Under the pieces are notes generated by a model, which worked only from the letters and a program-made list of their open reading frames with translations, was not told where the DNA came from and made no database searches. Source: Bdellovibrionales bacterium (lineage in GTDB: Bacteria > Bdellovibrionota > UBA1018 > CAIMNF01). Taken from it: a stretch of 42,056 bases of DNA. Both the position numbers and the translations under genes were made by a program. Shown here piece after piece: positions 2,562 through 20,309 of the stretch. The stretch covers positions 1 to 42,056 of the forward strand of contig JAGWXK010000011.1 of the NCBI GenBank assembly GCA_018969905.1. Reading direction: 5' to 3'. How positions within the stretch are numbered: position 1 is the stretch's first letter; every line of letters begins with the position of its first letter.

Positions 2562-2618
2562 GGCTCAAGGTTTTATTCCCTCCGTCCGATACAGATGTGA
2601 CGAGGGTAGACTAGAACT

Positions 2619-4604
2619 ATGAGCGATTCAGTCCTCAAAAAATTCGGGAAATACTTTCTTCTCGATCGAATCGGAGAAGGGGGGATGGCCGAAATCTTCA
2701 GAGCCCGTCTTGCATCTCCGGGATCAAGCGGTCGCTTCGTGGTCATCAAGCGGATTCAAGGCGCGTACAGCAATAACAACGAGTTCGTTCAGATGTTTCG
2801 CGGTGAAGTCCAGGTGACCATGAGATTTACCCATCCCAACATAGTTCAATTGTATGAGTCGGGCGAGGAGAGTGGGCAGCAGTTCATTGCCATGGAGCTG
2901 GTTGAAGGGCGGAATCTCAGGCAAATTCTGTCAAAAATATCGCAAAAACAGCAAAGGGTTCCAGTTGCAGCATCCTGCCACATGATTGAACAGGCGGCTG
3001 CAGGGTTGAATTATGCTCATGGATTCAAGGATCGCATTACCGGAGAACCGCTCAATGTGGTTCATCGGGATGTGAGTCCCCAGAACATTCTTGTCTCTTA
3101 TGACGGAAACATAAAGGTGATCGACTTTGGGATTGCAAAAGCAGCAACAAACGGGGATGCGACGCGAGCCGGAGTGATCAAAGGAAAGCTCAGTTACCTC
3201 TCTCCCGAACAGGTCATGGGAGAGGCGCTCGATGGCAGGTCGGATCTTTTTGCTCTGGGCATTGTGCTTTGGGAGTTGTTGACCGGTAAGCGCCTTTTCG
3301 TTGCAGAGGGAGACAACGAATTCCAGGTTTTGAAGATGATCGAGAGTTGCAACTCCTATGTGAAGCCTCCATCCTCCTTCAATCAGGAGGTGCCAAAGGA
3401 ACTTGATGCTCTCGTGCTCCAGGCTCTGAATCGCGATCCGAGAAAACGTTTTCAGACCGGGGACGAGATGGCTCGAGCGCTCCGAAAAATTCTGGCTCTT
3501 CACTTCTCCGACTTTGGTGCCTCTGATCTTTCGACTTTTGTAAAAAAATTGTTTCATGATCTGATCGTGGAGGATCGCAAGCAACTCCAGCAATTGAATG
3601 CCAAAGCAGAGGACTTGATCGCCCTTGGAAATCAGGTGATCACAAAAGATACACTTTCACCGAATCAGTCTGGACCGCGTGATGTCACGAGGATTACCAA
3701 CCTCGGGAATAAATTTGAAAAGTCCCAAATTACCAATGCTGAAAAGGTTGAAGTTGCCATTCAGCCCGACCGTCAGATGAAGATACCAAGCGCTCGATCC
3801 GGCGCCACACCAGCTTCTGCTTCAAGGCCGAGTCCTGCAGTTCCTCCGCCGGTCAAAAAAACCCATAGTCCGAGTGGAGCCCCGACACCTGTTCAAGAGC
3901 CGAACCCAATTTTTGCATCCATCATGAAGATGGCGGTGGTGGTGGGGGTGATTGCCGTTGCCGGATACTGGTTGAAGGGGCAGTTTCTTCAGAAAAATGA
4001 GGGAGTCGGACCGAGTCGGAGTGTGGCTGCAAGTGCTCCCGGCGCAGTGGTAAATCCCGGCGTGAATACCGCAGTCAATCCGCAAGCGAAGGCAGCCCGG
4101 ATCAAGTTCAGATTTTTTCCAGATGGAAATCTTTCACGAACCAGGGCAGCCATCAACTCATCTCCTGTGGATCTGGCTGGGGGGGATGTTTTGGTCACGG
4201 TGGGGGATCCTCTCGAGCTTGTAGTTGATCGACCCGGTTTTGTCACCTACCGAAAGGAATTTACGGTGAAGGAGTCTGATTTGTCGGACGGGAAGGATTT
4301 CAATCTTGACGTTAAACTTGAGCCGATGGTTTACGGTACTTTGACCCTCTCCACGGTGCCTGATCTTGCCGATGTCACGATTGTCAGCCTGGACCAGGGA
4401 ACGAACGGAAACTTGCAAAAATCGGTGATTTTGAAGACTCCGATTTACCGGGAGAAGCTCCCGGTCGGACACTACCGAGTGATCATCCGAAATGATCTTT
4501 TGAATGTGGAAAAAACATTTCAGATTGAGGTCAAGCAGGGGGATGTCATCGTGAAGAATGGAATTCCTCTGGAAGCGGCTCGGAATCCGGCTGGTCGCCG
4601 CTGA
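2619..4604 (+). CDS. Membrane-anchored Ser/Thr protein kinase with periplasmic PEGA-like region
   Basis: 661 residues from the ATG at 2619. The kinase domain spans roughly residues 8-290: glycine-rich loop GEGGMAEI, ATP-binding Lys44 in VVIKRI, catalytic loop HRDVSPQN with Asp151, and metal-binding DFG with Asp169. The HRDVSPQN variant is characteristic of Myxococcota/Bdellovibrionota kinases. A Ser/Pro-rich linker (about 380-425) leads to one transmembrane helix near 435-455. The C-terminal 200 residues contain repeated beta-strand segments resembling PEGA domains (GGDVLVTVGDPLELVV, LPVGHYRVII) and would lie in the periplasm, where they may sense envelope components. All catalytic residues are present, so it should be active. 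It ends exactly where the convergent response regulator gene ends. No substrate gene is evident nearby. Confidence 0.92.
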   Translation: MSDSVLKKFGKYFLLDRIGEGGMAEIFRARLASPGSSGRFVVIKRIQGAYSNNNEFVQMFRGEVQVTMRFTHPNIVQLYESGEESGQQFIAMELVEGRNLRQILSKISQKQQRVPVAASCHMIEQAAAGLNYAHGFKDRITGEPLNVVHRDVSPQNILVSYDGNIKVIDFGIAKAATNGDATRAGVIKGKLSYLSPEQVMGEALDGRSDLFALGIVLWELLTGKRLFVAEGDNEFQVLKMIESCNSYVKPPSSFNQEVPKELDALVLQALNRDPRKRFQTGDEMARALRKILALHFSDFGASDLSTFVKKLFHDLIVEDRKQLQQLNAKAEDLIALGNQVITKDTLSPNQSGPRDVTRITNLGNKFEKSQITNAEKVEVAIQPDRQMKIPSARSGATPASASRPSPAVPPPVKKTHSPSGAPTPVQEPNPIFASIMKMAVVVGVIAVAGYWLKGQFLQKNEGVGPSRSVAASAPGAVVNPGVNTAVNPQAKAARIKFRFFPDGNLSRTRAAINSSPVDLAGGDVLVTVGDPLELVVDRPGFVTYRKEFTVKESDLSDGKDFNLDVKLEPMVYGTLTLSTVPDLADVTIVSLDQGTNGNLQKSVILKTPIYREKLPVGHYRVIIRNDLLNVEKTFQIEVKQGDVIVKNGIPLEAARNPAGRR

Positions 4605-5279
4605 TCAGGGTACGTACTTGTATCCGACCCCGTAAACACTCTGAATGTGGTTGTTCATCGCCGGAATCTTCTTCCGGAGAGATCGGATGTGCACATCGAT
4701 CGTCCGATCCGTGGTTTCAGAGGCCGAGTCCTTCCAGATTTCCCTCATGATCTCCTCCCGGGATACCACAACCCCGAAACGGGCGGCCAAAAGTCGGAGA
4801 ATGTCGAATTCAGTAAGAGTCAATGAAACGGGAGATCTCTCGTAGTGCGCGACTCTTTGAAGAGTGTCGATCTCGAGCTTTCCTACCACAACTTTCGGAG
4901 CCGGGTTTGAAAGCGATCTTGCGAGCCTTGTCTTGATTCTTGCCAGGAGTTCCTTGTGGTCGAATGGCTTTGGAAGATAGTCGTCTGCGCCCATGGAAAT
5001 CCCGTAGGTAATTTCCGCTGTGGTATTTTTTCCGGAAAGGAAGATCACTGGAATGTTTTCGGTTTCGGGAATGGACTTCAGGCGTTTGCACGTGTCGTAT
5101 CCATTCAGGCTGGGCATGACCACATCGAGAACAATCAACTCAGGCTGGAGGGATTTGGCCAGTTCGATCCCCTCGATGCCGTCTCGGGCGATTGCGACCT
5201 CGAATTCACGGCTTAACATGACTTGAAGAAACTTTCTGGTATCAGCGTTGTCTTCGATAACGAGTATTTTTGCCTTCAT
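4605..5279 (-). CDS. OmpR/PhoB-family response regulator
   Basis: 224 residues. The receiver domain (1-120) has the acidic pair E9-D10, phospho-acceptor Asp52 in LIVLDVVMP, and the conserved Lys104 in YLPKPFD. The C-terminal part (about 127-224) is a winged-helix DNA-binding domain with LTLTEFDILRLLA and RTIDVHIRSLRKKI, ending GVGYKYVP. It should be a phosphorylation-controlled transcription factor. No histidine kinase is present in the locus; instead the upstream gene encodes a STAS-like protein whose stop overlaps this start by the four bases ATGA, implying coupled translation. The gene is convergent with the Ser/Thr kinase and shares no intergenic space with it. Confidence 0.95.
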   Translation of the reverse strand: MKAKILVIEDNADTRKFLQVMLSREFEVAIARDGIEGIELAKSLQPELIVLDVVMPSLNGYDTCKRLKSIPETENIPVIFLSGKNTTAEITYGISMGADDYLPKPFDHKELLARIKTRLARSLSNPAPKVVVGKLEIDTLQRVAHYERSPVSLTLTEFDILRLLAARFGVVVSREEIMREIWKDSASETTDRTIDVHIRSLRKKIPAMNNHIQSVYGVGYKYVP

Positions 5280-5749
5280 TTTTCACTCCAAAGGCGCTCA
5301 AAAAGGGGGTTGAAGGGATTTCTGCGATTCAGCGTCAGAGCCGAGCTCTTTTCATCGATTGCGGATTTGAGCGCACGGTTTGCCTCCAGAATCCGTTCCA
5401 TGTTCTGCCGCATTTCTTCTCGAAGTTCGAGTTTTCCTTGGAGGATTCGGAGTTGCTTTTCGAGAGCATTCTGCAGCACTGTTTTGCGCGCCGTGCCGGC
5501 CTCAATGTCGCTCAATGCAATCTGGAGTGAGACTCCTTTCGCCAAAGCAAGAGTACGAATTTCTGTGAGAGTGGTTTGGAGTTCGAAATCCGGAACTTGG
5601 AGCGTGATTTCACTAAGGTCCACGACGACAAACTCCGGGGTCGATTCCAGAAAGCGACAAAGACTGTCTTTCATGACTTGGAGATCGGAGGGAGAAATTT
5701 CTCCGTTGATCTTGAAGTGATGCACTTTTTCATCCATGGAGAAGAGCAT
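5276..5749 (-). CDS. STAS-like protein with C-terminal coiled coil
   Basis: 157 residues from the third of three clustered ATGs; this one is chosen because GGAGG lies eight bases before it, whereas the first ATG (5764) would place that sequence inside the gene. Residues 1-90 alternate strands and helices in a STAS-like pattern: a strand EFVVVDLSEITL, then a helix with LTEIRTLALAKG and a strand SLQIAL. The serine normally phosphorylated in STAS anti-sigma antagonists (DSSG) is replaced by VPDFEL. Residues from about 95 on form a charged helix likely to be a coiled coil (ELREEMRQNMERILEANRAL). It is translationally coupled to the response regulator. Its likely role is binding a signalling partner, perhaps that regulator or the SpoIIE-type phosphatase encoded across the divergent promoter; this is inference. 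Confidence 0.7.
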   Translation of the reverse strand: MLFSMDEKVHHFKINGEISPSDLQVMKDSLCRFLESTPEFVVVDLSEITLQVPDFELQTTLTEIRTLALAKGVSLQIALSDIEAGTARKTVLQNALEKQLRILQGKLELREEMRQNMERILEANRALKSAIDEKSSALTLNRRNPFNPLFERLWSEK

Positions 5750-5826
5750 TTTCATATCCTCCATTTTTACATGATCTTAACAAATTCAAAAGGGCGGCGT
5801 TTCCGGATTCTTTGAGTGTTTGTTTT

Positions 5827-5856
5827 TTGACATAAAGGCACGGAACTTCATACAAA
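5827..5856 (+). promoter_or_regulatory. Candidate sigma70 promoter for the barrel protein/SpoIIE operon
   Basis: A perfect -35 box TTGACA at 5827-5832 and a weaker -10 box TACAAA at 5851-5856 are separated by 18 bases. The predicted start of transcription is about 45 bases before the GTG at 5907. It sits in the divergent region between the STAS-like gene and the barrel gene. Read by eye only. Confidence 0.45.
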
Positions 5857-5906
5857 CCGAGCTTTGGTTTTCTCGCGATTTTTCCGATCAGAAATTTGGA
5901 GAACTT

Positions 5907-7040
5907 GTGAAAAAGTGGATTCATTCATATCGCTTGATCTGGATCATTGGAGGCATCTTCCTTGGAAGAGCATCGCTAGCCCTTCCGTACTCCTATCCTG
6001 CGGTCCGATACATCAGTCCTCTGGGACACTCCCTCGGGGGCATGACCCTCCCTTTGAGTGCCGAAACAGGAAATGCCCTCTTCAACAATCCTGCTGCGCT
6101 CTCCCGGAATACCAAGTTCAGGGCCGAAGCACTCAACCTAAATTTCGACCTTAACAGCTCAATCCTTGGGTCTTTGTCAACCTCTACGGGTTTTTCATCC
6201 CTCGGAGGATTCACTTCGAGCCTCAACTCTAATGTGAACAGGATTTTTAGTGGTGGCCTTGGCAACCTCACTGCGGTTTCCTGGGGGGGGCTTGCTGTTG
6301 GGCTTCTTTTGCAGGAAAGGGTGCGGGCCTACTCCGATGGAACCACGGTGAATTACGAGACCACCAGCAACCTGGTTCCGGCGGTGGGATACGGCCTGGC
6401 CCTCGCCCGAGGCGTGGTGAGAGTAGGGTACAGTCTTCAACTTGTAAGTCAGGCAAGCGGAGTCGCACAGGCTCCCTCCAATTCCTCCGCAGCATATTTG
6501 AGTGGGATTTCCGAGGGTAAGGGACTTTCCCATACCGCCTCTGTCAACTTCGTTTTTCCATACACCTACACTCCAACTGTATCGCTCCTGGCGAGAAATC
6601 TTTTTGGCATGCGCTATTTTTCAAGAGGTTTGATCCCCAGAGCGAGTTCACCGATCGGGACTCCCGCGAGTGAACCGATGAGTATTGATGCGGCGCTGGA
6701 CTTTACAGCAAGGCTTTCAGGACCCATCAAGTCCAACTGGTATATTCAATTCAAGGATCTCACCAGTGCGACATCTCTGGCGCTCTTGGACAAATTGAGT
6801 TTCGGGATAGACCTTGGAATCAGTCAGCCTGTTTCGATTCGTCTCGGGCTGAACCATTTCCAATTCAGCGGTGGAATCGGATACCGCAGCGAATTCAGCG
6901 AAATCAATCTTGCCTATTACCAGGAGCTTACACCGTTTCCTGCGATTTCGAAGTGGGACACACGGTATGCCTTGCAGTACAAGGTATTCATCCAGGACAA
7001 AAACAGCAGGGATCGAGAGACGGAGAACCAATCAAAATGA
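5907..7040 (+). CDS. Outer membrane beta-barrel protein (PorV/FadL/TraF-like)
   Basis: 377 residues from a GTG at 5907, chosen because GGAG lies five bases upstream and the next residues form a clean signal peptide (KKW, hydrophobic IWIIGGIFLG, then a SLA cleavage region). The open frame continues upstream to a TTG at 5820, but that part looks like leader. The mature N-terminus has RYISPLGHSLGGMTLP and ETGNALFNNPAALS, the hatch-like pattern (G.A...NPA.L) seen in PorV/FadL/TraF-type barrels, followed by many alternating amphipathic strands rich in G, S, L, F and Y. It should be an outer membrane channel or assembly factor. Its stop overlaps the start of the phosphatase gene by ATGA, tying a barrel to a cytoplasmic signalling protein. 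Confidence 0.8.
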   Translation: MKKWIHSYRLIWIIGGIFLGRASLALPYSYPAVRYISPLGHSLGGMTLPLSAETGNALFNNPAALSRNTKFRAEALNLNFDLNSSILGSLSTSTGFSSLGGFTSSLNSNVNRIFSGGLGNLTAVSWGGLAVGLLLQERVRAYSDGTTVNYETTSNLVPAVGYGLALARGVVRVGYSLQLVSQASGVAQAPSNSSAAYLSGISEGKGLSHTASVNFVFPYTYTPTVSLLARNLFGMRYFSRGLIPRASSPIGTPASEPMSIDAALDFTARLSGPIKSNWYIQFKDLTSATSLALLDKLSFGIDLGISQPVSIRLGLNHFQFSGGIGYRSEFSEINLAYYQELTPFPAISKWDTRYALQYKVFIQDKNSRDRETENQSK

Positions 7041-8191
7041 AGCCGGAAACAAGAAACCAAGAAGTCAGTATCAGTATTTTGTGTCGGGATACACAGGTGG
7101 AATCGACATGGAATTCGGAATTGAAAACACTCCTTCGATCTCTCACGGGGCAGATGGTTTCAAGGGTTTTCCCGGTGAGGGAGTCGGTATCGGAACTGAT
7201 TTTCATAGATTCAGGTAAAACCAACTGGAAGGGATGGGCCAGGGATCTTGACCGCGAGGGAAAGAGTCTTGTTCTGGTACTGGAAGAGTCCGAGGTTTTA
7301 CCCGACCCTGATTCGATTGCCCTCGTGGACGATCTGATCCTGAGTCCCTTTCGTCCCGCTGGATTCTTGTCAATTCTGCGCCATCACCATCAGAGAAGAT
7401 ATGCGCATGAACTTTTTTTGGAGACCCAGGCGACACTGCAGGATCTTGATTCGGCAAAGGGGGTTTTGGAGAGCATTCTCCAGTTGAAGACCCCAAAACG
7501 GTTTACCGGATTGAAGGGGATCGAGGTCATGAGCAGGCATCTCGCGGGTCTCAAACCGGGCGGAGATTACTTTGATCTCTTTGAGTCCGACAAAAAGGAT
7601 CATGTGAACTTTCTTTTGATGGATTCCTCAAGTTACGGGATTTCGGCGGCGCTTCTTGGGATGATTCTTTCAAGTTCCGCAAAGATCGCTAGTTCAACCC
7701 AGATTCCGTCATCGCACTGGGTAAAAGCCATATTTGAGGAAATCAGGTTGACTCTTGGCGAAGAAGGGCACTTCAGTGTATTTCTCGGAAGGCTGAACCG
7801 GAAGGATTTTTCACTTCATTATCAGATGTACGGAAGCATCGAGGCATTCGTGGTGGATCGGGATGGAGTCAGCAGTAGGCTCGCAAAGCACGGACTGCCG
7901 ATCAGCAATCGATCAAGGCCGGTGACGGAAGAAGAAAGCGTGGTTCATCTCCAACCAAAAGACCGCCTGGTGTTGCTCTCGGATGGGTTTGTCAGTGGGG
8001 CGGGCGGAGAGCATCGTTTGGCACGTTTGTTCGCAGATCAAATGAACCAGAATCCATTTGCACTTGTCAATGAACTTGCCTTTCAGATCAAATCAAAACT
8101 GAGTCCAGGCGAGACCTTTCCCGGGGAGGATTGCACCGCGATCGTGATCGACATTCAAAATCGGGTGTTACGCCTCGCTCCGACCGGTTGA
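7037..8191 (+). CDS. SpoIIE/RsbU-type PP2C phosphatase with degenerate receiver domain
   Basis: 384 residues; ATG at 7037 is inside the stop of the previous gene. Residues 1-115 look like a receiver domain: a strand VSISILCRD, a strand ending ELIFIDSG with an Asp where the phospho-site belongs, and the terminal DDLILSPFRPAGFLSIL, which matches the usual ..KPF...EL..I but with Ser replacing the conserved Lys. A linker helix (about 115-150) leads to a SpoIIE domain (about 160-384) with metal-binding Asp residues in PGGDYFDLF, LLMDSSSYGISAALL, LLSDGF and EDCTAIVI. Such phosphatases dephosphorylate STAS-domain proteins in partner-switching systems, and a STAS-like gene lies across the divergent promoter. 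The last 24 bases overlap the convergent mscS gene. Confidence 0.85.
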   Translation: MKPETRNQEVSISILCRDTQVESTWNSELKTLLRSLTGQMVSRVFPVRESVSELIFIDSGKTNWKGWARDLDREGKSLVLVLEESEVLPDPDSIALVDDLILSPFRPAGFLSILRHHHQRRYAHELFLETQATLQDLDSAKGVLESILQLKTPKRFTGLKGIEVMSRHLAGLKPGGDYFDLFESDKKDHVNFLLMDSSSYGISAALLGMILSSSAKIASSTQIPSSHWVKAIFEEIRLTLGEEGHFSVFLGRLNRKDFSLHYQMYGSIEAFVVDRDGVSSRLAKHGLPISNRSRPVTEEESVVHLQPKDRLVLLSDGFVSGAGGEHRLARLFADQMNQNPFALVNELAFQIKSKLSPGETFPGEDCTAIVIDIQNRVLRLAPTG

Positions 8192-14595: not shown

Positions 14596-15357
14596 TCAGA
14601 CCCCCTGCGCTTTGACTAGAAGGACGGTCACGTTGTCGTCACCTCCGTTTGAGTTTGCCGCATGGACGAGTCTTTCCGCTGCATCAAGAAGAGGAAGGGA
14701 TCGTTTCTCCCCGTCCATCAGAATCTCATGCATGACGTGATCCTCGACAGGACCGCTCAGACCATCCGAGCACAGAAGAAAACCATCTCCAGGACGGACT
14801 TCAATCTTGAAGATTTCGCCTCGAACATTGGGCTCATACCCTACAGAACGCGTGATCACGTTTTTCATGTCATCGGACTTCAATTGTTCGCGAGTGATCA
14901 GACCTGCACGTAGTTTTTCCTGCACAAGGGAATGATCCTTGCTGATCTGCCAGATTCCATCTTCATTCCAGAGGTATGCCCGGCTGTCTCCCACCTGGAG
15001 TATGGTGGCTTCGTGATCCGAGATCTTCAGGATGGTGGCAGTGGTCCCCATTCCCTCGAGTTGGGGCTCTTTCGAAGCTCTTTCATATATGGCCTGGTTT
15101 GCGATTTGGATGGATTGCTGCAAGATCAGAGAGTCAGACGAATCGCTTTTGTCTGTTGAGGCTCTCACATGTTCCGCCACTTTCTCGACACAAAGCTGAC
15201 TTGCGATCTCACCACCCTGATGACCGCCCATTCCGTCCGCAACCATGAAGAGTCCCAGATCTGGTTCTGCGAGGCCGGTGTCCTGGTTTTGTTTTCGTTT
15301 CAAACCAATGTCTGAAAGCAAGGCGCAGCTCAATTGAAGGGTGGTCGTTGGATTCAT
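14596..15357 (-). CDS. PP2C-type Ser/Thr protein phosphatase (Stp/PrpC)
   Basis: 253 residues from the ATG at 15357; an in-frame TTG at 15381 would add eight residues. Metal-binding motifs are complete: QNQD (Asp26), VADGMGGHQGG (Asp41), LLCSDGLSGPVEDH and NGGDDNVTVLLV. It should remove phosphate from Ser/Thr residues placed by kinases such as the one at 2619. It is the first gene of the operon leading to secA and is divergent from prkA, so a phosphatase and a kinase share one promoter region. The length and the GGHQGGE loop place it with the small bacterial Stp1 family rather than SpoIIE. Confidence 0.95.
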   Translation of the reverse strand: MNPTTTLQLSCALLSDIGLKRKQNQDTGLAEPDLGLFMVADGMGGHQGGEIASQLCVEKVAEHVRASTDKSDSSDSLILQQSIQIANQAIYERASKEPQLEGMGTTATILKISDHEATILQVGDSRAYLWNEDGIWQISKDHSLVQEKLRAGLITREQLKSDDMKNVITRSVGYEPNVRGEIFKIEVRPGDGFLLCSDGLSGPVEDHVMHEILMDGEKRSLPLLDAAERLVHAANSNGGDDNVTVLLVKAQGV

Positions 15358-15508
15358 GATGCTTAGGTGTATTGTGTCCAAAAAGACTTGGAATGTCCAC
15401 GATTTCTGCCAGAAAATCCCAAGGGATTTGGTAAAAAAACCTTACTTGTGGAGTGAAGAAATCAGGATTGGAAAACCCCTTCCTCTTGCGCGCCGCAGCA
15501 GGGAGCTC

Positions 15509-15536
15509 TTGAGTTAAATTAAATTGGTTTTATGGA
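15509..15536 (+). promoter_or_regulatory. Candidate promoter for the prkA operon
   Basis: In the 263-base divergent region between the PP2C gene and prkA, a TTGAGT box at 15509-15514 and a TATGGA box at 15531-15536 are separated by 16 bases in an AT-rich patch. The predicted start would be near 15543, giving a leader of about 80 bases. The match is moderate and read by eye. The rest of the region up to 15508 shows no further clear signal. Confidence 0.3.
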
Positions 15537-15538
15537 AT

Positions 15539-15562
15539 AAAACGCGCCGCAAGGGGCGTTTT
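15539..15562 (+). other. Hairpin with GCAA tetraloop in the prkA leader
   Basis: The arms AAAACGC (15539-15545) and GCGTTTT (15556-15562) pair, and inside them CC (15547-15548) pairs with GG (15553-15554) after one G-G mismatch, closing a GCAA loop of the stable GNRA class. Thymines follow the GC-rich part, so it could act as a terminator/attenuator, or as a protective stem at the 5' end of the prkA transcript. It lies immediately downstream of the candidate -10 box. Confidence 0.4.
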
Positions 15563-15620
15563 CCTTAGACGCTCGCAAAGTCGGTCGATACACTAATAGG
15601 GAGAAGAGGGCCTCCAAAAC

Positions 15621-17693
15621 ATGACTCAATCCGCACAAGAGTGGTCGAAATATTTGAATCAAATTCAATCCAAAGAAGAATTCCAGAGCTTGAACTGGGA
15701 AGGGAATTTCTTTGAATATCTTGAAATGGTGAAGAAAGATCCGTTGATCGCGAGAAACGCGTTTCAGCGGATGTACGACATGGTTCTCACCTGGGGAACC
15801 GAGAACTACGTCGAGTACAAAAAAGAAATCACCCGGTACAAGTTCTTTGATGATCCGATTGACCAAGGAAAAGACGCTGTTTTCGGTCTTGATGTCCAGC
15901 TGATGAAGCTTGTGAATTTTTTCAAGTCCGCAGCCTATGGGTACGGAACTGAGAAGCGAGTTCTTCTCCTTCATGGTCCCGTGGGCTCGGCGAAGTCCAC
16001 CATTGCTCGGCTCTTGAAAAAGGGAATCGAGCAATATTCCAAAACTGAAGCGGGTGCGCTTTATTCTTTCAAGTGGATTGATCCGACAGGAAAAGGCGAA
16101 CCTCTTTTTGGTGGCGCAACCGAGATGATGTCTCCCATGCATGAGGATCCTCTGAAGCTCATCCCGGAGGAAATGCGAGCGAAGGTTCTTTCTGAGGTGA
16201 ATCTAAACGCGAAGGGTGATTACAAGGTTGCCATCAAGGGCGATATGGACCCGGCCTCACGTTTTGTCATGCGGGAGCTCTTGAAACGGTATCACGGGGA
16301 CTGGACCCAGGTTATTGCCAATCACGTTCGGGTGGTCCGGATCGCGCTGTCTGAAAAAGACAGGCTTGGAATCGGCACTTTTCAGCCAAAAGACGAGAAA
16401 AACCAGGATTCCACCGAGCTTACCGGAGACATCAATTACCGGAAGATCGCGGAATACGGCTCGGATTCCGATCCGCGTGCCTTCAATTTTGATGGTGAAT
16501 TCTGTGTTGCCAATCGGGGCGTGATCGAGTTTATCGAGGTGCTCAAGCTTGATGTCGCGTTCTTGTACGACCTTCTCACTGCATCCCAGGAACATAAAAT
16601 TAAGCCCAAGAAGTTTGCCCAGACCGACATTGATGAGGTGATTATCGGTCACACCAACGAGCCTGAATTTAGAAAGCTCCAGAACAACGAGTTCATGGAA
16701 GCGCTTCGGGATCGGACAGTAAAGATCGATGTTCCGTACATCACGAAGCTCAAGCACGAAGTCAAGATTTACGAAAAGGACTTCAATTCCCAGAAAATCC
16801 GCGGAAAAAGTATTGCGCCACATACGATCGAGGTGGCTGCAATGTGGGCGATCCTGACCCGCCTTGAGCATCCGAAAAAAGCGAACATTTCGCTCATGCA
16901 AAAGCTCAAGCTCTATGACGGAAAAACTCTCTCCGGGTTTTCTGAGGAAAACGTCAAGGAGCTTAGGAAAGAGGCGATACGCGAGGGTCTCGACGGGGTT
17001 TCCCCCCGATACGTCCAGGACAAGATTTCAAACGCGATCGTGAAGAGTGAGATTCCCTGCGTGAATCCGTTCATGATCCTGAATGAACTTGAAAGTGGGC
17101 TGAAGAACCATGCGCTCATCGCAAGTGAAGAGCGCAGACGCGAGTACCGGGATCTGATCGGACTTGTGAAGCAGGAGTACGAGGACATCGTGAAGAACGA
17201 GGTTCAGCGCGCGATATCTGCAGACGAAGATGCGATTGCCAAGCTTTGCGGCAACTACATTGATAACGTAAAGGCCTACACTCAGCGTGAAAAAATCCGG
17301 AACAAATACACCGGGATGGATGAGGAGTGCGATGAGCGTTTGATGCGTTCGATCGAGGAAAAGATCGACATTCCTGAGAGCCGCAAGGATGATTTTAGGC
17401 GTGAGATCATGAACTACATCGGAGCGCTTGCGATCGAGGGGCGTACCTTTGATTACAAAACAAATGAGCGGCTCCACAAGGCTCTTGAGCTGAAGCTGTT
17501 TGAGGACCAGAAGGACACGATCAAACTGACCAGTCTTGTGTCCAACGTGGTGGACCGCGCAACCCAGGAAAAAATCGATGTCGTGAAATCAAGGCTCATC
17601 AAATACTTCGGCTATGACGAAATCTCTGCGACCGATGTGCTGAACTTTGTTGCGAGCATTTTTGCCCGCGGCGATGTGAAGAAGCGGGAGTAG
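15621..17693 (+). CDS. prkA: PrkA-family AAA+ serine protein kinase (YeaG)
   Basis: 690 residues, somewhat longer than E. coli YeaG and Bacillus PrkA. The N-terminal AAA+ core has Walker [10 protein letters not shown] at 119-127, preceded by the family signature RMYDMV and [15 protein letters not shown]. The C-terminal region holds the kinase-like part described for PrkA. In other bacteria PrkA/YeaG acts in starvation, stress or sporulation-like responses together with the next two genes. The genes are co-directional with five bases to yeaH. No start alternative is needed; the ATG at 15621 gives the usual N-terminus. Confidence 0.95.
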
Positions 17694-17698
17694 AAAGA

Positions 17699-18817
17699 AT
17701 GATTGATGGCGCACGCCGGGATCATGCACGCTTCCGTCAAATTGTACGAGGGAAGATCAAGCAGGACCTGAAGAAGTACATCACTCACTCGGAAATGTTC
17801 GGTCGCAAAGGCAAGGACACGGTTACCATTCCCATGCCTCAAATCGACATTCCAAGGTTTCGCTATGGTTCCAATCAGGGCGGGGTGGGGCAAGGGGATG
17901 GAAATCCCGGTGATCCAGTGCCCGGTCAGGGAGATCCGAATCAAGAGGGTGAGGGTGGCAAGAAGGCTGGGCAAGACAGCGGGCAGCATGATCTTGAGGT
18001 TGAGTTTACGCTTGAGGAGTTGGCGGAAATTCTGGGGGAGCAGCTTCAGCTTCCGAAGATCGAGCCACGAGGCCAGAAAAACCTGAAATCCAAGGTCGAC
18101 AAGTATACGGCCATCGCATCCCAAGGGCCTAATTCTCTTCGGCACTTCAAAAGAACCTTTAAGGAGGCATTGAAACGCCAGATTGCCTCCGGGATCTATG
18201 ATCCGGAGAATCCGGTGATTGTTCCCATCAAAAAAGACATGCGTTTTCGCTCCTGGAAATCGGATGTGAAGCATGAGAACTCAGCCGTAATCATCTATAT
18301 GATGGACGTTTCGGGCTCGATGGGGGATGAGCAAAAAGAGATTGTCCGTACTGAAGCATTTTGGATTAACACGTGGCTTAAATCCCAGTACAAGGGCGTT
18401 GAAACCCGTTACATCATTCACGATGCAACGGCAAAAGAGGTAGATGAAGACACTTTCTTTCGGACCCGTGAGAGCGGTGGAACCTTGATCAGTTCTGCCT
18501 ACAAGATTTGTGAGCAGATCATCAACAAGGATTATCCGCCTGGAGATTGGAACATTTACCCGTTTCATTTTTCGGACGGAGACAACTGGTCTACTGAAGA
18601 TACGAAGCTTTGCATTGATTTGATGAAGAACTCATTGCTTCCGAAGGTGAATGCGTTTTGCTACGGACAGGTGGATTCGCGCTATGGATCGGGTCAGTTT
18701 TACAAGGACCTGATCGAAGTGTTTGGAAACGACGATGACTCGGTAATCCTTTCGCGGATTGAAAACAAAGACGGGATTTTGCAGTCCATCAAGGATTTTT
18801 TAGGGAAGGGTCGATAA
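17699..18817 (+). CDS. yeaH: DUF444 protein YeaH/YhbH with VWA-like domain
   Basis: 372 residues. After an N-terminal helix and [17 protein letters not shown] comes a Gly/Gln/Pro-rich linker (about 57-98), normal for the family. The C-terminal half is a von Willebrand A-like fold with a MIDAS metal site MDVSGSMGD (Asp203, Ser205, Ser207), and [11 protein letters not shown] as the second metal-site segment. GGAG lies eight bases before the ATG at 17699. It is the fixed partner of PrkA and SpoVR in many phyla; its biochemical role is still not established. It is one base from spoVR. Confidence 0.95.
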
Positions 18818-18818
18818 G

Positions 18819-20309
<1,491 letters not shown>

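Follow-up and report, generated by a model that had tools for sequence, protein, structure and literature searches.

How does a locus that carries the parts of a partner-switching system signal when no anti-sigma kinase is encoded beside them and the STAS-like protein has lost the usual serine? The question is raised by a gene cluster in a 42,056-nt stretch of DNA (hereafter the window; NCBI GenBank assembly GCA_018969905.1, contig JAGWXK010000011.1, positions 1 to 42,056, forward strand) from a Bdellovibrionales bacterium, an uncultured Bdellovibrionota relative of the predatory Bdellovibrio. The genome comprises 2.73 Mb in 180 contigs and is 97% complete; its nearest relatives are uncultured Bdellovibrionales and Oligoflexia metagenome-assembled genomes, a few of them deposited under other names (for example, L093). 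Our analyses indicate that the locus is probably an unstudied signaling system tied to motility. The interpretation that we put forward tentatively, at somewhat less than an even chance, is that it represents one signaling module of the order, linked to FliA and built around a kinase and an RssB-like phosphatase, with a STAS adaptor that does not switch.

An earlier sequence-only reading of positions 4,605 to 8,191 had described four genes in two overlapping pairs that face away from each other. Open reading frame (ORF) calls and Pfam matches place all four genes as described, and both pairs overlap by ATGA (5279-5276 for the STAS and regulator genes, 7037-7040 for the barrel and phosphatase genes). 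The conserved block is larger, however, and includes an adjoining Ser/Thr kinase gene that had been overlooked. The features are:

2565..2591, + strand: putative FliA (sigma-28)-like promoter for the kinase, TCAAG-N16-CCGATA, 10/11 versus the published Bdellovibrio consensus
2619..4604, + strand: Ser/Thr protein kinase, 661 residues (Pfam Pkinase, 3e-42)
4605..5279, - strand: OmpR-family response regulator (Pfam Response_reg, 4e-25; Trans_reg_C, 1e-22)
5276..5749, - strand: STAS-like protein, 157 residues (AlphaFold fold, VIA, family profile); truncated STAS part at residues 1-97 (bases 5459-5749), long C-terminal helix to residue 142, [LI]W[SG] tail
5863..5889, + strand: weak FliA-like site 5' of the barrel gene, TTTGG-N16-CCGATC, 8/11
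5907..7040, + strand: predicted outer-membrane beta-barrel, 377 residues from GTG 5907 (weak matches at the family level)
7037..8191, + strand: RssB-like phosphatase protein, 384 residues (Pfam SpoIIE, 5e-15, residues 187-373; profile; model); receiver 10-104 (7064-7348), helical linker 107-151 (7355-7489), PPM/SpoIIE domain 158-377 (7508-8167)

Relatives were collected through the phosphatase. The best 80 of 86 matches were used, comprising 44 related loci and 36 loci from other phyla, the latter entering the motif comparison only. The barrel gene lies directly 5' of the phosphatase gene in 36 of the 44 related loci, at distances of -107 to +27 nt by longest ORF. No barrel match was found beside the other eight phosphatases, seven shorter proteins of 289 to 316 residues (L123-L129) and L141 (380 residues), which are excluded from the 36. 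Presence counts rest on the 25 of those 36 loci with more than 4.5 kb to the left of the barrel gene. Among them the regulator was found in all 25, the kinase in 24, an HD-GYP protein in 18, the STAS protein in 16, an HDOD protein in 10 and a small coiled-coil protein in 10. The variable genes fall into few combinations: STAS, coiled-coil, HDOD and HD-GYP together (10 loci), HD-GYP only (8), STAS only (6) and none (1). All six STAS-only loci belong to the window's genus, and HD-GYP, HDOD and coiled-coil genes, which relatives often have inserted within the block, are absent from the genus loci. Hence, outside the genus, STAS, coiled coil and HDOD occur jointly or not at all in these combinations; beyond the 25 loci, G017 (L076) has STAS with HD-GYP alone. 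The outer flanks vary by group (MurC-like or KAM on the left, MscS/DapF or CGS/CysK on the right) while the inner block is constant. The kinase, regulator, barrel and phosphatase genes are kept together across most of the order, and the genes of the sequence-only reading, which had proposed comparing genomes on this point, adjoin in relatives.

The HD-GYP members retain HDxG and HHExxDGxGYP in 12 of 12 aligned sequences. Searches across the genus gave HD-GYP matches in 12/12 genomes (best E values of 1e-42 to 1e-33) and HDOD matches in 11/12 (1e-22 to 8e-15); the locus members scored at most 1e-92 for HD-GYP and at most 1e-93 for HDOD (with L101, 4e-23, as an exception), in a different search space. 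Relocation of the locus HD-GYP and HDOD genes within the genus was considered and rejected, as the weaker scores look like those of paralogues, which for HDOD is not proved.

The kinase and regulator genes are convergent in the window, with abutting stop codons (4604/4605). They adjoin in 24 of the 25 loci and are convergent in 22; the contig of L110 stops 77 bases beyond the regulator gene. The kinase family retains the catalytic Lys in 24 of 25 aligned members, with one gap, and the HRD and DFG Asp residues in 25 of 25. The receiver of the window regulator is likewise intact (E9, D10, D52, S82 and K104), and among aligned family members D52 and S82 are found in 26/26 and K104 in 25/26. With so canonical a receiver, the regulator may be driven by acetyl phosphate or a histidine kinase; reading the stretches by eye turned up no gene for such a kinase, and no family-based search for one was made.

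The kinase gene also carries a promoter signature. In B. bacteriovorus, the motif TTAAG-N16-CCGATA is present in 92 of 140 attack-phase promoters and is attributed to FliA (PMC3627812). A first scoring with the Escherichia coli consensus had pointed to the kinase, barrel and HD-GYP genes, and the scoring was redone with the Bdellovibrio consensus and controls. For each gene with 150 upstream bases, these and 60 bases inside the gene were scored against TTAAG-N16-CCGATA at spacings of 15-17, with 174 regions from 16 families, including phosphatase, regulator, STAS, HDOD and coiled-coil genes, as controls. Sites of at least 9/11 were found for 20/24 kinase genes, 11/17 HD-GYP genes and 13/31 barrel genes, compared with 9/174 controls. 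In Markov shuffles of the kinase upstream regions, a score of 10/11 occurred at a rate of 0.0033. When single spacings from 8 to 26 were scored, the kinase count peaked at 16 (19/24, with a maximum of 7 elsewhere), as did the HD-GYP count (7/17, maximum of 3 elsewhere). By this promoter match, the kinase gene looks FliA-switched. The window barrel gene, whose start is likely GTG 5907 with GGAG before it, is a miss in the promoter count because its longest ORF begins before the site; CCGAT of the barrel site is kept in L048 but reads CCGAA in L056.

FliA and FlgM each score above the cut-off in 12/12 genus genomes, that of the window included. The statement of the sequence-only reading that no anti-sigma kinase or sigma factor is present holds for the neighborhood, and FliA and FlgM are encoded elsewhere in the genome. 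An exact search of this genome for GTTTN{11,12}NCCGATAA returned one match, equal to the backward-control count and inside a stretch that looked coding by eye, and was set aside; the strict E. coli-like form of the FliA promoter is not the genus's form. A sigma-70 promoter scan found none, versus 2.7 expected from shuffles, and is uninformative.

The phosphatase protein resembles Pseudomonas aeruginosa RssB over most of its length. Its family profile matches RssB (3eq2) with an E value of 2e-12 over positions 6-321, which cover the receiver, the linker and most of the PPM domain. The predicted model has a predicted local distance difference test (pLDDT) score of 84, and its best Foldseek matches are the RssB structures 3f7a/3eq2 (E value of 1e-17). 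Comparison with VIA gave a Z of 21.0 to 3eq2, with 324 residues aligned and a root mean square deviation (rmsd) of 19.2 for both domains jointly, presumably reflecting a different interdomain angle; the RssB phosphatase domain (3f79) gave a Z of 20.7 and an rmsd of 2.5. VIA values were comparable for other PPM proteins, namely 3ke6 (Z of 22.8, rmsd of 2.4, 205 aligned), SiaA (6k4e, Z of 22.1) and SpoIIE (5ucg, Z of 21.4). The predicted structure has the receiver-helix-PPM architecture of RssB, with the PPM fold present.

The conserved receiver and catalytic residues are only partly retained. In the receiver, the Asp (D58) is present in 24 of 27 family members, the Lys before the conserved Pro in 0/27 and Thr at position 82 in 3/27; together with the topology of the model, the missing Lys bears out the earlier description of this receiver as degenerate. 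In the PPM domain, the acids of GGD (26/27), D196 (26/27) and SDG (25/27) are kept. In the DDxT motif, the leading Asp serves as a metal ligand; at this position the 27 members have Q (13), E (11), D (1), H (1) and S (1), with E364 in the window protein. In the loci from other phyla, DD is kept in 30/36, the remaining 6 not aligning over the motifs. The DVSGHG-type motif reads DSSSYG in 20/27 and a close variant in 7. Core acids are missing from L062 and L075 as well. In the short relatives L123-L129, GGD is retained and position 196 is Ser or Cys (L123 as far as it aligns); the six that align further lack both the SDG Asp and the leading D of DDxT. These losses make activity uncertain in the window protein, and some relatives have probably lost it. 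Short relatives from a different part of the phylum lie near a gene that by eye resembles citrate synthase (L187:6402-7271, L188:6361-7287 and L189:5986-6924).

The STAS-like protein could not be assigned by Pfam, which gave no STAS match and a sub-threshold match to DUF835 only. Within its family, however, 11 of 21 members match Pfam STAS at E values up to 1 (best 7e-7), and the family profile matches the anti-sigma antagonist TM1442 with an E value of 2.5e-6. The AlphaFold model (pLDDT of 90.5) has the topology b1-b2-a1-b3-a2-b4 followed by a single helix at residues 81-142. Its top Foldseek match is RsbV (6m36, 2.8e-4), and VIA aligned residues 1-97 with RsfB (Z of 11.6, rmsd of 1.9, 89 aligned) and RsbS (Z of 11.6, rmsd of 2.1, 93 aligned). 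The 50 VIA rows (Z of 11.6-7.7) comprise anti-sigma antagonists, stressosome proteins and SLC26/SulP-type transporters, with six rows for the glutaminase Mglu. The predicted fold is that of a STAS domain, as the sequence-only reading had supposed. Judged by the alignment of relatives and by a jump in the chain ranges, the protein lacks the usual a3-b5 unit. Alternative in-frame ATG codons at 5755 and 5764 would extend the protein to 159 or 162 residues.

At the segment that in TM1442 reads M-D-S-A-G-L, the window protein has V-P-D-F-E-L, and the D-S pair occurs in 2 of 21 family members, so the earlier remark that the STAS serine is replaced stands. The phosphorylatable Ser/Thr in the D-S-x-G-L segment, a trait of RsbV and SpoIIAA, is absent from the window protein, and an adaptor role therefore fits better than a switch. 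The gene is present in 12/12 genus genomes, that of the window included; the family profile matches 49 of 117 genomes, with many of the matches being paralogues elsewhere or matches to the coiled coil only. A C-terminal [LI]W tail is found in 10 of 21 aligned STAS proteins, which are all 10 genus members. This tail resembles that of the separate coiled-coil protein found in relatives, and a STAS-coiled-coil fusion in the genus was therefore considered. The profile of the coiled-coil protein, however, scores STAS coiled coils of other families as well or better (best 1e-10 versus 5e-3 for the window protein) and does not tell a possible fusion from plain coiled-coil similarity.

Several further observations concern the STAS family. 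The small coiled-coil protein of L061, L063, L064, L069, L071-L074, L078 and L086 ends in [LI]WK[NDS] in 10/10 cases; its gene overlaps the start of the regulator gene by ~20-55 bases (longest ORF), and the Pfam matches of the three scanned members are below cut-off. Between the STAS and barrel genes of the window, the stretch ATCTTAACAAATTCAAAAGGG (5774-5794) does not vary among three species that share ~75% identity in their STAS proteins, is partly kept in L050 and L058 and is not visible by eye in the six other genus members shown; the STAS-regulator operon may have its operator or promoter here. Elsewhere, the same STAS family is repeatedly paired with an HDOD protein (L177:4686-6294 in G000:C42, L179-L182 and L184-L186), and beside these pairs in L182, L184 and L185 lies a gene that by eye resembles a CBS-domain protein. 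The window's genome also encodes a 126-residue GSSG-motif protein that by eye resembles a canonical STAS protein (L178:8471-8851, G000:C142), its gene lying ~1.2 kb from a paralogous HD-GYP gene (6654-7286).

The barrel protein of the window has no Pfam match. Among 35 family members, 5 match Toluene_X (OMPP1/FadL/TodX; best 5e-6), PorV gave an E value of 0.06, and the protein is probably a barrel of the FadL/PorV kind. Barrel matches occur in 90 of the 117 genomes searched, that of the window included. In eight stretches from other classes of the phylum (L066 and L079-L085), the barrel stands without a neighbor that matches the window phosphatase. The pathway from the outer membrane to the regulator that the sequence-only reading suggested, and any signal through the barrel, are speculation.

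The observed gene order, residue changes and kinase promoter pattern, together with the predicted folds, are consistent with the following model. A transmembrane Ser/Thr kinase would be opposed by the RssB-like receiver-helix-PPM protein. FliA would transcribe the kinase gene, probably the barrel-phosphatase operon and, in relatives, the HD-GYP gene, with the STAS-regulator operon outside FliA control. In swimming cells, the kinase may phosphorylate a cytoplasmic target, either the OmpR regulator or another protein bound to STAS; the RssB-like protein would reverse or sense that phosphorylation. The STAS protein would serve as a fixed adaptor, bringing either the regulator or FlgM to the phosphatase-like partner, and the barrel could be a sensor. 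As no RsbW-type kinase scores above the cut-off in the genome, the adjacent kinase is the nearest source of Ser/Thr phosphate. A bolder version, which we regard as unlikely, is a system like a partner switch with this eukaryotic-type Ser/Thr kinase replacing the anti-sigma kinase, the STAS protein serving as a fixed coiled-coil adaptor and the barrel, produced together with the RssB-like phosphatase, feeding the state of the envelope or prey contact into FliA-dependent motility control.

Several results weigh against the proposed module. Since 9/25 loci are without the STAS gene, the core must be able to do without it. The MurC-like, CGS and CysK neighbors are also often kept, so general synteny may account for some of the gene order, and the genomes are kin, so that the counts are not independent. 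In G013 (L077), the regulator family was not found and a 626-residue ORF splits barrel from phosphatase; at 1e-10, the phosphatase search returned no match in four of the order's 55 genomes (G013, G028, G044 and G047), and in G042 it gave just a weak one, within a 584-residue frame. The barrel genes show no sharp spacing peak (7 at 16, 0 to 5 elsewhere), and their case hence rests mainly on the CCGATA box; the window barrel site, at 8/11, is not significant alone, as 32/174 controls reach 8 at spacing 16. The positive control was modest, with flagellin genes reaching at least 9/11 in 7/29 cases (4% in shuffles; L204, which had no upstream sequence, was dropped from the 30 fetched). Finally, the first Asp of DDxT is replaced in 26/27 family members, which leaves catalysis uncertain.

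This last point leads to the alternative that the receiver-PPM protein, barely or no longer a phosphatase, binds or delivers a target as an RssB-type adaptor, helped by the STAS protein in a co-adaptor role. Of the solved structures, RssB is the nearest relative along the entire protein, and the loss of the first DDxT Asp, the DSSSYG variant, the core acids lost in L062 and L075, the missing D196 of the short relatives that keep GGD (L124-L129, and L123 as far as aligned) and the missing SDG Asp of six of them all fit such a role. RssB of P. aeruginosa is itself an adaptor that needs RssC, yet its phosphatase is active (PMC12143880). Three of the four metal-binding Asp residues are kept in 25-26/27 members, however, which suggests selection for metal binding, and the Glu of the window protein at the fourth position could still bind metal; we consider this alternative rather doubtful. 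A canonical partner switch, in which the PPM protein dephosphorylates the STAS protein and the latter binds an RsbW-type kinase encoded elsewhere, would account for a SpoIIE-type phosphatase and a STAS fold in one locus, and HATPase_c_2 matches do rise above the cut-off in 4/12 genus genomes (frames of 259-584 residues). The three matches in the window's own genome (frames of 450-751 residues) are all below it, though, and no RsbW-type HATPase anti-sigma kinase was found in the locus. With the phosphoserine motif missing as well (D-S pair in only 2/21), the STAS and phosphatase genes on opposite strands and over a third of loci (9/25) without STAS, we do not make the canonical switch our first choice and hold it highly improbable. 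The sequence-only reading was right that the parts resemble partner switching and that no RsbW-type kinase lies nearby; it had overlooked the full-length RssB match, the altered catalytic motif, the FliA-like promoters and the HD-GYP, HDOD and coiled-coil genes of relatives.

Two simpler accounts need less of the locus to work together. Ser/Thr kinases are known to cross-talk to other OmpR regulators, and the kinase and regulator genes are constant, mostly convergent neighbors; the kinase might add phosphate to Ser/Thr of the OmpR regulator, to be removed again by the phosphatase, with STAS and barrel as passengers. The regulator's canonical receiver may instead take its phosphate from a histidine kinase or acetyl phosphate, and a mere passenger sits poorly with a STAS gene kept throughout the genus (12/12 genomes), making this account quite unlikely. 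If, on the other hand, slow rearrangement alone kept functionally unlinked neighbors together, the synteny of some flanking genes in parts of the order would be explained; yet the inner block persists where the flanks differ among groups, and the kinase and HD-GYP genes have the same promoter type, which the control genes do not, so we judge the absence of any functional link very unlikely. The FliA-linked kinase/phosphatase module with a STAS adaptor remains our tentative reading.

Elsewhere in the window, at 14596-20309, a PP2C-like phosphatase gene (14596-15381) lies beside three further genes, whose products look like PrkA, YeaH and SpoVR.

In a large group of uncultured Bdellovibrionota, the locus is a candidate for the means by which swimming (attack-phase-like) cells couple Ser/Thr phosphorylation to motility. 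It also lets one phylum show the PPM family losing catalytic residues to differing degrees, much as in the scenario put forward for how RssB arose. A STAS-HDOD pairing is defined as well. Among the matches listed (titles and abstract starts), no such locus was found, nor did the single search on the pairing give a paper naming both HDOD and STAS domains, with subscription journals mostly outside the coverage.

Compared with known systems, the barrel has weak family matches to the FadL/OMPP1/TodX and PorV barrels and differs from them in the missing Pfam match of the window protein and in its conserved place before a PPM phosphatase. The Rsb and SpoIIE systems (RsbU-RsbV-RsbW and SpoIIE-SpoIIAA-SpoIIAB) share the PPM phosphatase and STAS folds, whereas the window locus is without RsbW, a dedicated sigma factor or a phosphoserine motif. 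RssB-RssC is closer. In P. aeruginosa, the genes for RssB and the STAS protein RssC lie in one operon (PMC12143880), and the window protein has the RssB domain order over its full length, with RssB as the top match by profile and Foldseek and among the top by VIA, and a STAS gene nearby. In contrast to RssB-RssC, the window receiver family has no Lys (0/27), DDxT is altered, the block includes a Ser/Thr kinase, the STAS gene is truncated, on the opposite strand and without the phosphoserine motif, and a barrel gene directly precedes the phosphatase gene. In P. aeruginosa, too, the receiver-PP2C protein HsbR acts via the STAS protein HsbA on FlgM/FliA and a diguanylate cyclase (PMC6482189). With this HsbR-HsbA-FlgM-FliA system the window locus shares a receiver-PP2C protein, a STAS protein and FliA and cyclic di-GMP (c-di-GMP) links, HD-GYP being found in the window's relatives. 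HsbR, however, has its own kinase/anti-sigma domain, whereas the 384-residue window protein ends after the PPM domain; HsbA switches by phosphorylation, for which the window STAS protein has no site; and the FliA link of the window locus takes the form of FliA-like promoters. The lack of a kinase/anti-sigma domain, the missing phosphoserine motif and the degenerate receiver place the locus outside both systems, and by analogy it may work like HsbR-HsbA and RssB-RssC while being a member of neither.

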